Of a DNA stretch of 64,000 nt, positions 11,447 to 41,290 are shown piece by piece. The notes beneath the pieces were generated by a model. It had not been told where the DNA came from, did no database searches, and worked only from the letters and a program-made list of their open reading frames with translations. Source of the DNA: Eubacterium nodatum ATCC 33099. GTDB lineage: Bacteria; Bacillota; Clostridia; Peptostreptococcales; Anaerovoracaceae. The stretch is from assembly GCA_000510425.1 (NCBI GenBank), contig AZKM01000029.1, positions 1-64,000 on the forward strand, in the 5' to 3' direction. The first letter of the stretch is position 1, and each line of letters opens with the position of its first letter. A program made the translations under genes and the position numbers.

Positions 11447-13528
11447 TTATAATCCGTGCTTCAATTTTTTCCTCGCAAGGGTTGTCTGAGGCAAGCCTAA
11501 AAGTGCAGCTGCCTTCCTTGTAGTCTTTTCTTTTTTTAGGGCATATTCAATAATATGTCTTTCTTGTTCGTCCATCAATTTATGGAAGTCCAACCTGTCC
11601 GTTCTTTGGAAGGAAGTCTTAACGCTTTTTACAAGATCGCCGTAAGCATTTCCGTTAAGGAGCTCCTCCACCTTTTCAGAGTGAATTACATTTTGTTGAC
11701 TGCTTATAATAAGTCTATGAATAATATTCTCCAGTTCCCTTACATTTCCCGGCCAATAGTAACTGTGAAGTACATTCAAAGCTCTTGGAGAAAGTTCTTT
11801 TTCCACGCCGTATTTTCTGTTATATTTTGCTACAAAAGCTTCAGATAATGCAATTATGTCGGCAGAGCGCTCTCTCAGAGGCGGAACCTCCAGTGTGCAT
11901 ATATTAAGTCTATAGTATAGGTCTTCTCTGAATTTTCCTCTGTCAACCAATTCCCTTATTGAGATGTTATTTGCACAGATAACTCTGACATTTACATTTA
12001 TCTGCTTCGTACCTCCCACTCTGTAAAATTGATTTTCCTGGAGGACTCTCAAAAGTTTGGACTGCATTGACATTGAAAGAGTTCCTATTTCATCCAGAAA
12101 AAGAATTCCATCATTTGCAAGTTCAAAATATCCGGCTTTTCCTGTGGACTGTGCTCCTGTAAAAGCCCCTTTCTCATACCCGAAAAATTCGGATTCTGCA
12201 AGGGATTCTGCGATTGTGGCACAGTTTATCTTAACACATGGTTTATTGTACCTTGCACTGTTTTGATGAATCAGCTCCAAAACCTTCTCTTTTCCCACTC
12301 CGGTCTCGCCTTGAATTATAACATTACAATCGTATCCGGCTACATTCATAACTTCATCAACCAGATTTTCCGTAACTATGTCCCGGTATACAAAACCATC
12401 AGATCTGCCGGTATTTTCAAGAGCCATACTTTTTGCCACCGTCTTTGTTATCTTATTTTTTCCGGAATATGATTTATATAGCTTATCCACATCTTCAAGT
12501 TTAGGTCTCAAAACCTGCAAAATCTGTCTTGTAAATTCTAAATAACCATCTATATACTGGTCAAAGGCATAGGTCGTAATCACCTTATTGATAGCTTCGG
12601 CACAGAGAACAGCAATACTGTAATTGCTCTCAGAAGAAGTAAAATATATTGCACCGTTCTGCTTTACAATCTGGACTGCAACAGTTTCTGTACCCGATAC
12701 ATCATCTGTTACTATCACAAGATCCACATCCCCTATATTTTTTAAAACCGGCTTCAACTTATTATAGGAATCTATCGGTTCGCCGAAATTGATAAAATAT
12801 ATGTCTTTAAACAAGGGAGAAAGCAAATCTGCTATCTCTTTTCTCGGAATAAAGTCATTATAATATTTGTCCATAAGACCGGTGACTCTATAAGAAGGAC
12901 CGATTGCCTCTCTCATTGCAGCTGCATACATCAGCATTGTATGCGGATTACTTCCAAGTATCACAACATTTTTACAGTTATTTTTCTTCGTTACCGTATA
13001 TGTTCCGTATATATTCCCTGCCTCGTCCAAAGCTGCCAGTATGTAGTTAGGATTAAAATCAGGAAGCTGGGGATATATCGGAGAGCTTTCAAATATTATC
13101 ATATAGCCTTTACACCTGATTTGCCCATAGTTATAATCTATCTCCGCAATTTCATCTATGTGCATTGGGAGACAGCCTAAAGATGTTATGCAGTAAATCT
13201 TATCACCCGTTGATATTGGCATGGTTCCATCGAAAGATTCATGGACTGCTTCTATTTCCCCCATCATCAGCCCACCGGTATGGGTAAATGGATTTTGAAA
13301 CTTGCCTCGTTTATCCACTATATCAAGGATTCTTGCCTTTATCTTATCTTCTTTGTATCCACAGCTATTACAAATCTGCTGAAAGCTGTCCCATTCCACA
13401 TTGATTCTATCCAATGAAACTCTTGCCTCACCGGGTCTTATTTCCCAACTGTTGTCCAATTTCCATGCAACCGGCGGAAATACGCCTGGCGGCTCAAGCA
13501 CTCTATCCAAGCCAAAATTTTTTTCCAT
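11447..13528 (-). CDS. Sigma-54-dependent transcriptional activator with a 3,5-diaminohexanoate dehydrogenase-like sensor domain
   Basis: 693 residues. The AAA+ domain carries Walker A GETGVGKE (407-414), the sigma-54 contact loop GAFTGA (454-459) and Walker B GILFLDEIG (474-482). A Fis-type helix-turn-helix ends the protein (TRKAAALLGLPQTTLARKKL). The first ~345 residues are not a PAS, GAF or receiver domain. From GLDRVLEPPGVFPP through FQNPFTHTGG and PNYILAALDEAG to the Rossmann-like VVILGSNPHT, they follow the sequence of L-erythro-3,5-diaminohexanoate dehydrogenase (Kdd), an enzyme of clostridial lysine fermentation. The glycine-rich NAD loop is degenerate (LGSNPHT), so the domain is probably a sensor. 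By inference the protein senses a lysine-pathway intermediate; no lysine-fermentation genes lie in the window. A terminator (13583-13619) separates it from the PFOR gene. Confidence 0.88.
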   Translation of the reverse strand: MEKNFGLDRVLEPPGVFPPVAWKLDNSWEIRPGEARVSLDRINVEWDSFQQICNSCGYKEDKIKARILDIVDKRGKFQNPFTHTGGLMMGEIEAVHESFDGTMPISTGDKIYCITSLGCLPMHIDEIAEIDYNYGQIRCKGYMIIFESSPIYPQLPDFNPNYILAALDEAGNIYGTYTVTKKNNCKNVVILGSNPHTMLMYAAAMREAIGPSYRVTGLMDKYYNDFIPRKEIADLLSPLFKDIYFINFGEPIDSYNKLKPVLKNIGDVDLVIVTDDVSGTETVAVQIVKQNGAIYFTSSESNYSIAVLCAEAINKVITTYAFDQYIDGYLEFTRQILQVLRPKLEDVDKLYKSYSGKNKITKTVAKSMALENTGRSDGFVYRDIVTENLVDEVMNVAGYDCNVIIQGETGVGKEKVLELIHQNSARYNKPCVKINCATIAESLAESEFFGYEKGAFTGAQSTGKAGYFELANDGILFLDEIGTLSMSMQSKLLRVLQENQFYRVGGTKQINVNVRVICANNISIRELVDRGKFREDLYYRLNICTLEVPPLRERSADIIALSEAFVAKYNRKYGVEKELSPRALNVLHSYYWPGNVRELENIIHRLIISSQQNVIHSEKVEELLNGNAYGDLVKSVKTSFQRTDRLDFHKLMDEQERHIIEYALKKEKTTRKAAALLGLPQTTLARKKLKHGL

Positions 13529-39949: not shown

Positions 39950-41290
39950 TTAAAACAATTTTGTAGCCAAATATTCATCCCAGATTTTTTCCGGAACCAG
40001 CCTTCCGCCTGTCGCCCAACAGATTTGAGTTGTATTGTCTAATATTTGTTCAGTAAAACCTTTTTCATTCAGGTATTTCAGCGAATTTTCATGGTGAAGA
40101 AGCATTCCCGGTCCGATGAAGGAAGCGCAGCTTGAGGGCTCGATTCTAATATTTTCTGAAGCTATTAACATCCTCATATAATCATAAAGCCGTCTATCCT
40201 CACAAGTAAAATCTCCTGAGACAATGTTATTATCTATTCTTGTAACAAACCCTGACGGAGAGGCACAGGCAAGACCATCTGCATGGGTTTGTCCACTCAA
40301 GCCAAAGTCCTTTACATTTGCAAGTTCGTATCTCTGAGAAGCATATCCCACAAGAAGAGACGGACACATAACCGGTTCCGTAAAGAAAATATGGACATTA
40401 TCACCATACAGTCTCTTTAAACCATAAGCAACTCCTCCCGGAGCACCTCCCACTCCTGCCGGAATATAGACAATAAGCGGGTTGTCAGCATCAACTTTGA
40501 TGTTCATTTCCTTAAGCTGCCTATCCATTCGCTTTGCCGCCACCGCATATCCCAGGAAAAGATCAACTGAATACTCATCATCAATAAAATAGCTGGTATG
40601 ATCTGCGTCTGAGTTTCGCCTTCCCTCTGCAACTGCTTTGGAATAATCTTCTTCGTATTCTATCACTTCAACGCCCCTGCTTCTCAGCATGTCCTTCTTC
40701 CACTGCTTCGCATCTGAAGACATGTGAACCTTCACTTTAAAGCCGATAAAGGCACTCATGATTCCTATTGAAAGTCCTAAATTCCCTGTAGAACCCACCT
40801 GTATGGTATACTCGCTGAAAAAGTCTTTCATATCTGCAATTTTACGGTAGTCATCCCTCTCCGACAACTTACCTTTCTCAATTGCAAGAGTTTCTGCATA
40901 TTTCAAAACTTCATAGATTCCACCTCTCGCCTTAACTGAACCTGCTATCGCAAGGTGAGAATCCATTTTCAAAAGAAGTCTTCCCGGGATTTTCGCTCCT
41001 TCATTCTCCAAAGCACTTTTCATAGAAGAAATTTCTCTCAAAGGAGATTCTATTAAGCCACCTGTCTCTTCCGTTTCCGGAAAGCACATTTTTATATAAG
41101 GTGCAAACCGATTGAGTCTTTCTTCCGCTTTACTTATATCTTCATCTGAAACCACAAGCTGGCAAAGTCCGTCAATAATGTCAAAATTAAGAAGCCTTTC
41201 ATTGATCCATACCGTTTCCTTTCCCGATATAACATCTCGAATCACCGGATTCGCCTCAGCCAAAGCCTTTGCATATTCCTTAATTCCCAT
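39950..41290 (-). CDS. dsdA: D-serine ammonia-lyase
   Basis: 446 residues, standard DsdA length. PLP-binding motif SHLAIAGSVKARGGIYEVL (111-129) with Lys120; glycine loop VGSTGNLGLSIG (~166-177); AGVGGAPGGVAYGLK (~278-292). It deaminates D-serine to pyruvate and ammonia, feeding the PFOR gene in this fermentative setting. GGAG precedes the ATG. No DsdC or transporter lies next to it. Confidence 0.95.
   Translation of the reverse strand: MGIKEYAKALAEANPVIRDVISGKETVWINERLLNFDIIDGLCQLVVSDEDISKAEERLNRFAPYIKMCFPETEETGGLIESPLREISSMKSALENEGAKIPGRLLLKMDSHLAIAGSVKARGGIYEVLKYAETLAIEKGKLSERDDYRKIADMKDFFSEYTIQVGSTGNLGLSIGIMSAFIGFKVKVHMSSDAKQWKKDMLRSRGVEVIEYEEDYSKAVAEGRRNSDADHTSYFIDDEYSVDLFLGYAVAAKRMDRQLKEMNIKVDADNPLIVYIPAGVGGAPGGVAYGLKRLYGDNVHIFFTEPVMCPSLLVGYASQRYELANVKDFGLSGQTHADGLACASPSGFVTRIDNNIVSGDFTCEDRRLYDYMRMLIASENIRIEPSSCASFIGPGMLLHHENSLKYLNEKGFTEQILDNTTQICWATGGRLVPEKIWDEYLATKLF

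Follow-up and report, generated by a model that had tools for sequence, protein, structure and literature searches.

A sigma-54 activator whose predicted sensor has the fold of a lysine-pathway dehydrogenase, and its relatives in Clostridia

Positions 11,447 to 13,528 of the window, by which we mean the whole 64-kb stretch of DNA analysed, hold a reverse-strand gene for a protein in which a region resembling L-erythro-3,5-diaminohexanoate dehydrogenase (Kdd) precedes a sigma-54 activator. Its features are as follows.

11447..13528, (-) strand: whole gene, Kdd-like sensor and sigma-54 activator, 693 aa, a single open frame
12530..13516, (-) strand: Kdd-like sensor, residues 5-333, with GroES-like and Rossmann parts (alignment to solved Kdd, fold match of the model)
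12935..12955, (-) strand: degenerate NAD(P) loop, residues 192-198, GSNPHTM where the reference enzyme has GGGGKSG (alignment)
12596..12598, (-) strand: E311, counterpart of the Kdd substrate-scope glutamate E310 (alignment)
11891..12376, (-) strand: sigma-54 interaction AAA+ domain, residues 385-546 (PF00158, E 8.7e-64)
12287..12310, (-) strand: Walker A, GETGVGKE, residues 407-414, motif intact
12152..12169, (-) strand: GAFTGA loop, residues 454-459, motif intact
11654..11875, (-) strand: AAA+ lid domain, residues 552-625 (domain model)
11453..11581, (-) strand: Fis-type HTH_50, residues 650-692 (25.2 bits against a cut-off of 27 bits)

A first-pass annotation, made from the letters alone, had read the gene as a sigma-54 activator with a Kdd-type sensor, and the searches bear this out. 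The AAA+ domain scores 214.7 bits with PF00158 in a profile search, against a cut-off of 20.2, and the HTH_50 match (E 1.3e-5) lies slightly below its curated cut-off; the AlphaFold model of the protein (mean pLDDT 82.9, pTM 0.53) has three C-terminal helices. For the sensor part, the profile search against Kdd proposed in that annotation returned the NCBIfam Kdd model NF052381 (178 positions), which matches residues 6-172 with an E-value of 1.1e-38 and a score of 132.9 bits, under the family cut-off of 200 bits. That the first ~345 residues follow Kdd along their length is likewise upheld: residues 5-331/333 align to the solved 3,5-DAHDH structures 7dl3/7dl1 (E 1e-27 and 5.9e-27), and a fold comparison of the model with 7dl0_B gives a target TM of 0.84 across 362 columns. 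Because the model matches 7dl0_B, the Rossmann half is also present. The PDB titles of the Kdd structure matches name mutants. For the first ~345 residues Pfam gave nothing beyond chance-level matches, with no PAS match to the protein at E 1 or better, and the relatives listed carry a precomputed PF26370.1 annotation. The PrdR model NF041552 covers residues 345-687 only, with 321.8 bits against an equivalog cut-off of 795. The protein is confirmed to combine a complete Kdd fold with an intact sigma-54 activator.

Around the gene, the order regulator, phosphoesterase gene, AI-2E-type gene, murB, PHP gene and rapZ is conserved in clusters shared with relatives. A BKACE gene follows rapZ in seven relatives (a true kce above cut-off in both of those tested), and in its place the window has other genes and a piece of IS30 beyond rapZ. 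This IS30 transposase piece lies at the window edge, at 2-430, where synteny with relatives breaks. A tblastn search with 24 proteins from the kam, ato, kce, transporter and dsdA clusters of five loci found no kam or kdd genes in the window, as first annotated, and matched only the regulator (with four Kdd queries) and dsdA at about 40.4-41.3 kb. With no convincing target promoter in the 64 kb either, the earlier placement of the regulon outside the window stands. We also considered as a target the gene upstream of the regulator, which we take to be a pyruvate:ferredoxin oxidoreductase gene, and set it aside when the scan gave no -24/-12 site for it. The dsdA homologue (39950-41290, reverse strand; 58% identical over 302 aa to that of L010) is about 26 kb from the regulator; in relatives dsdA adjoins it.

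A scan of species genomes yielded 60 GTDB loci with the fusion. Their architecture is near-uniform, with a frame of at least 632 aa in 57; contig ends cut two of the others and one is interrupted. Hornefia, Emergencia, Aminicella, Anaerovorax, Sinanaerobacter, Acidaminobacter and Clostridium aminobutyricum are among the named hosts. Nearest to the window protein is L001, of genome G001, with a sensor 87% identical; the start of the L001 protein is identical to that of P0002, which its source labels Hornefia sp. Viral contigs gave two pattern matches and no relative of the fusion.

The association of the fusion with lysine fermentation was followed in 43 genomes reached through 44 of the 60 loci (L023 was left out), so that all were chosen as fusion carriers. 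Kdd is above cut-off in 41 of them, the two others (G003 and G029) being assemblies of 1.5 and 1.8 Mb. In at least 38 of the 43, counted by eye, kdd has a fusion gene immediately ahead of it, in the same orientation and within about 3.6 kb; among the rows listed, the exceptions are G003, G027, G029, G031 and G042, and in G030 kdd is cut by the contig end. Around these kdd-linked copies we find a divergent kal, then one or two copies of kdd, kamA, kamB, kamC, kamD, kamE and CoA-transferase genes, with kal and kamA-kamE named by curated NCBIfam models on one representative each. Tandem kdd pairs occur in many kam operons (L100, L101, L094 and others), the two copies falling in separate enzyme clades. 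Of 291 genomes drawn evenly from the class and searched for Kdd and the fusion, 23 have Kdd above cut-off and six have the fusion, all six with Kdd; leaving out the already known G001 and G017, the four fusion genomes are all among the 21 of 289 with Kdd (about 2e-5, kinship ignored). Sigma-54 itself is present in 14 of 15 genomes. Since sister switches directly precede lysine-fermentation genes, it looks as if the cell uses a captured enzyme to sense the chemistry of its own pathway.

Sensors and enzymes were compared in an alignment of 42 Kdd enzymes and 93 fusion sensors. We call a position invariant in enzymes at 97% or more, kept if at least 97% of sensors retain it, and lost if 10% or less do. 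Of 113 enzyme-invariant positions, 13 are kept and 32 lost. Those kept are concentrated N-terminally, with 11 of 54 up to residue 155 and 2 of 59 beyond (Fisher 0.0065, a rough value given related rows), and in the window clade the counts are 20 of 54 against 7 of 59 (0.002, rough on the same account). The first-pass annotation had called the NAD loop degenerate, rightly: the enzyme-invariant G198, K199 and G201 read P195, H196 and M198 in the window protein, with G195 kept as G192. This loss is general, G198 being kept in 2, K199 in 4 and G201 in 6 of the 93 sensors; the four rows of a TRAP-linked clade keep K199 and mostly G201. Quite different is the position equivalent to E310, with E in 72 sensors, D in 19, G in one and N in one, and E in all 17 sensors of the window clade and all 24 of the kam clade. 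In the part of PMC9902596 covered here, the E310G variant of Kdd is reported to have a strong effect on substrate scope. The pattern of conservation looks like that of a domain keeping its binding site and dropping the redox step, and we infer that the sensor may bind Kdd's ligand.

A tree built with a quick method, leaving out L118_9523, L055 and the fragments L016 and L030, splits enzymes from sensors (SH-aLRT 99). Kam-linked sensors form one clade (98), as do EamA-linked sensors (100); those linked to CoA-transferase, thiolase and aminotransferase genes fall in two places, and a small TRAP-linked group lies nearest the enzymes. This would suggest a single capture of Kdd, and no more than suggest it, because all enzymes in the tree come from fusion-bearing genomes. 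The TRAP-linked clade may be an intermediate form, or may sense another beta-amino acid. At L106, L110 and L117 the neighbours of the fusion are a further Kdd, a TRAP transporter and a Kce-type gene. The aminotransferase operon recalls, by resemblance only, the Kat of a variant lysine pathway in the part of the source covered (PMC3149608). The window protein sits within a large clade, many members of which lie beside an NhaC/ArcD-type transporter gene, and the HTH sequences of this clade differ from those of the kam clade. G001 carries three fusions, one at kdd, one at a CoA-transferase operon and one orthologous to the window protein; this orthologue is separate from the kdd copy, which makes the window protein and the kdd-linked regulator paralogues. 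The view of the window copy as the kam/kdd regulator, implied by the first-pass annotation, therefore gives way to that of a paralogue in the transporter clade with a different predicted DNA site.

Promoters were counted with one -24/-12 scoring scheme, over distinct genes and with the site within 260 bp; the kdd row leaves out two regulator fragments, which takes it from 31 to 29. Sites of this type precede 21 of 22 transporters beside a regulator, 27 of the 31 distinct genes for a small protein (described below), 22 of 29 first kdd copies, 10 of 20 kal, all eight eamA and three of five atoD, against 15 of 998 control genes. They are found at 0 of 19 kamB, 0 of 18 kamD and 2 of 21 kamA. The suggestion that kam/kdd operons would show -24/-12 promoters is upheld in the relatives, whose lysine-fermentation clusters are complete and in most cases bear sigma-54 promoters. 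We also tried dsdA (D-serine ammonia-lyase), which lies beside the regulator in relatives, as a target and rejected it, with 0 of 13 bearing a site.

The two clades differ in their predicted regulator sites. A GAACC-N6-GGTTC dyad, allowing up to one mismatch, precedes kdd in 20 of 29 cases and kal in 15 of 20, compared with 14 of 998 control genes, and is the predicted site of the kam clade. Between window-type regulators and their transporters the element is TGACCC-N4-6-TGG, with GACCC-N6-GGGTC as its ideal form and the predicted site of the window clade; the motif was first noticed in these transporter regions, so its choice was not blind. The loose form occurs at 9 of the 22 transporters and at 5 of the 998 control genes; the sharp form (up to one mismatch) occurs at just 3 of the 22 transporters and 5 of the 31 genes for the small protein, as well as at 4 of 13 dsdA, genes with no sigma-54 site. 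The window-type site is clear in only part of the clade, and one half is often degenerate. Within the window itself, there is no sigma-54 site or GACCC dyad beyond chance, and neither motif is in excess.

Evidence that the family acts at these promoters comes from its losses. GAFTGA, GSFTGA or GTFTGA is present in 88 of the 93 sensors and missing in L036, L091, L092, L093 and L128. Four of the 24 kam-linked sensors lack GxFTGx (L091:7566, L092:6448, L093:7786 and L128:9002), and L091, L092 and L093 come from the closest relatives of the window that have a kam cluster, G001, G002 and G004 respectively. Counting sites that score at least 13.3, over a stretch wider than the 260 bp of the promoter count, none of the four loop-less kam sensors has a -24/-12 site towards kdd or kal; among the 20 that keep the loop, such a site is present in the kdd direction for 19 and in the kal direction for 17. 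L130, which has the loop and a different layout, has no site in either direction. All four loop-less loci retain GAACC-type sites at up to one mismatch. Loop and promoters were lost together, probably about twice, as L091, L092 and L093 form one clade, and we tie the absence of kdd promoters in L091-L093 to the loss of GAFTGA. This joint disappearance supports the view that the fusion family would act at the kdd and kal promoters. A further suggestion is that, in the lineage of the window, kam/kdd no longer depends on sigma-54 and the window-type copy still does; the loop-less kam regulators have perhaps moved to another sigma factor.

The small protein is the other gene product repeatedly found with the regulators. 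A profile built from the Hornefia-type and related frames, with a unit of about 75 aa, matches at 34 places, 31 of them distinct, in single, double or triple copies (for example L199:8618-8857 on the forward strand, and L198:6088-6318 and L052:2307-2546 on the reverse strand). Of the 31 genes, 21 come next after a regulator within 300 bp (17 of these in the opposite orientation), five follow a regulator at a distance of about 7 kb, three are just before one, and two are of the Hornefia type. Three helices are predicted, in a model with a pLDDT of 79.4 for which the PDB offered no similar fold at E 0.001 or better, and none of the eight proteins scanned matched a Pfam family above cut-off. Among 57 relatives there are few source names, which read hypothetical, and one automatic holin label. 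Our guess is that the protein is an uptake partner or a feedback regulator. For the transporter, a PDB sequence search gave no match, and the NhaC and ArcD model scores are far below cut-off.

Candidate targets for the window copy were examined in its two close relatives. In Hornefia butyriciproducens (G002) the transporter gene is 27 kb from the regulator and is preceded by a perfect GACCC dyad and a -24/-12 site, with GACCCGTTTACGGGTC and TGGCACAAGTCTTGCG upstream. The 2.4-Mb genome has two perfect GACCC dyads, about the chance number, and a reversed control pattern is commoner than the dyad in both genomes checked, so only the positions are telling. The second perfect dyad led to the small-protein gene, a 79-aa frame between genes that we take to be pyrI and addB; a tRNA-Thr gene separates the dyad from the promoter of the frame, some 0.5 kb away. 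Closer in, at about 230 bp ahead of the promoter TGGCACGGTATATGCT, there is a one-mismatch site, GACCCATAATTGGTTC. The same gene is found at the same place in G001, with the promoter TGGCACGAGGATTGCT and a two-mismatch site. The -24/-12 site of the small-protein gene is perfect in G001 and near-perfect in G002, whereas the G001 transporter is present without one. In the window, no small-protein gene was found at E below 1. For the window species, the small-protein gene is the only predicted target backed in both close relatives.

From the computed fold, motifs, tree, gene linkage, promoters and sites we infer a ligand, a switch mechanism, a transporter substrate and targets in the window's own genome. 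In Clostridia, a Kdd gene would have been taken over to serve as sensor for a sigma-54 activator, losing its NAD(P) chemistry and keeping the residues at its substrate end. Duplication would then have given separate copies to the kdd/kam core, to the CoA-transferase/aminotransferase end and to uptake, the window protein being the uptake-branch copy. A beta-amino acid of the lysine pathway, with L-erythro-3,5-diaminohexanoate as the best guess, would bind the sensor and release or assemble an AAA+ ring bound at GACCC-N6-GGGTC sites, and the activated ring would open the -24/-12 promoters of the NhaC-type transporter and/or the small helical protein. We hold this Kdd-derived uptake switch, gated by a beta-amino acid, to be the probable reading, with moderate confidence.

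Direct ligand sensing by the Kdd-like domain, as first proposed, is plausible, and lysine, beta-lysine or another beta-amino acid fits about as well as 3,5-diaminohexanoate. A Kdd-derived sensor that reads one of these, with each paralogue drifted to its own ligand, seems to us rather unlikely on the whole, and is nevertheless the alternative with most to recommend it: the targets of the window clade are uptake-like (a promoter at 21 of 22 transporters), for which an upstream substrate would be a sensible signal, D replaces E at the E310 position in 19 of 93 sensors, and a separate clade goes with a Kdd paralogue, a TRAP transporter and Kce. Set against this, the glutamate is invariant in both the window and kam clades. 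If instead a vestigial Rossmann half bound NAD(P)H, the protein would report the dinucleotide rather than an amino acid; the fold is retained and the TRAP-linked clade keeps K199 and mostly G201, but the loop is lost in the window protein and nearly all other sensors, and we give this idea little credence.

Equally, the regulator in the window's lineage might have lost its targets and be on its way out. The transporter and dsdA adjoin the gene in relatives and not in the window or L001, the G001 transporter has no sigma-54 site, and the kam paralogue in G001, G002 and G004 has lost GAFTGA and promoters. Decay of this kind is nonetheless improbable for a gene with an open frame, intact Walker A, GAFTGA and HTH and an orthologue with an 87% identical sensor, the more so as the small-protein gene keeps its -24/-12 site in G001 and G002 with imperfect window-type sites upstream. 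Returning to the uptake switch, a broader proposal can be made tentatively, although we would lean slightly against it as a whole: a captured dehydrogenase founded a metabolite-gated sigma-54 family whose paralogues split the pathway into uptake, core and CoA-transferase end, each reading its own intermediate and set apart by about one base per half-site (GAACC and GACCC), the most constant output in the window's broad clade being the undescribed three-helix protein.

The reuse of an enzyme fold as a sensor has a parallel in the MocR/GabR regulators, where a catabolic aminotransferase fold serves as ligand sensor on a GntR-type HTH; unlike the fusion described here, these are not sigma-54 activators. 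With Kdd itself (NF052381; PDB 7dl0/7dl1/7dl3/7dl7) the window sensor shares the whole fold, the E310 glutamate and much of the invariant GroES-like core, and differs in its sub-cut-off score (132.9 against 200 bits), its lost NAD loop and its fusion to AAA+ and HTH domains. KamR of Bacillus thuringiensis, as described in the part of the source covered, is a PAS-sensor sigma-54 activator of kamA (PMC4428206). Members of the fusion family are likewise sigma-54 activators at lysine aminomutase loci with a -24/-12 promoter, but with a Kdd fold as sensor and no PAS match. OrdR and other clostridial activators exert one-component sigma-54 control of amino-acid fermentation, including an nhaC gene, from sites mostly 100-250 bp upstream, according to the portion covered of a survey of 57 Clostridiales (PMC6615313). 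The sensors given there are PAS, GAF, PTS-HPr, PrpR_N, ACT, CBS, Fer4, Fe_hyd_lg_C, FeS, V4R and receiver domains; the fusion is of the same one-component type and tied to amino-acid fermentation, but a Kdd sensor is absent from that portion, and the words lysine, kam, kdd and diaminohexanoate are absent from the main text. The literature searched, which took in few subscription journals and mostly titles and abstract openings, contained no Kdd-like sigma-54 activator. We regard the family as a new variant: sigma-54 activators and sigma-54 control of lysine aminomutase were already known, and the captured pathway dehydrogenase as sensor and the pathway-partitioned paralogues are new.

Sensor types listed for sigma-54 activators in the papers covered, such as PAS, GAF, V4R and ACT, do not name their ligands. 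Here the ligand question is directly testable, because the ancestry of the sensor names candidate ligands and the promoters fix the targets. For gut Clostridia, the family would offer a logic by which lysine fermentation is regulated, and it draws attention to a family of small proteins, as yet without a name, that is linked to this pathway.

Two minor observations concern the surroundings of the regulators. Genes for LysO-type lysine exporters, often paired, lie near several of them (for example L058:17805-18818 and its cluster; the family name comes from one representative). Upstream of the regulator in L037, L042, L049 and L058, a site-like GAACCGAAAATGGTACAAT, or a close variant, overlaps by eye an apparent sigma-70 promoter of the regulator itself, suggesting possible autorepression.
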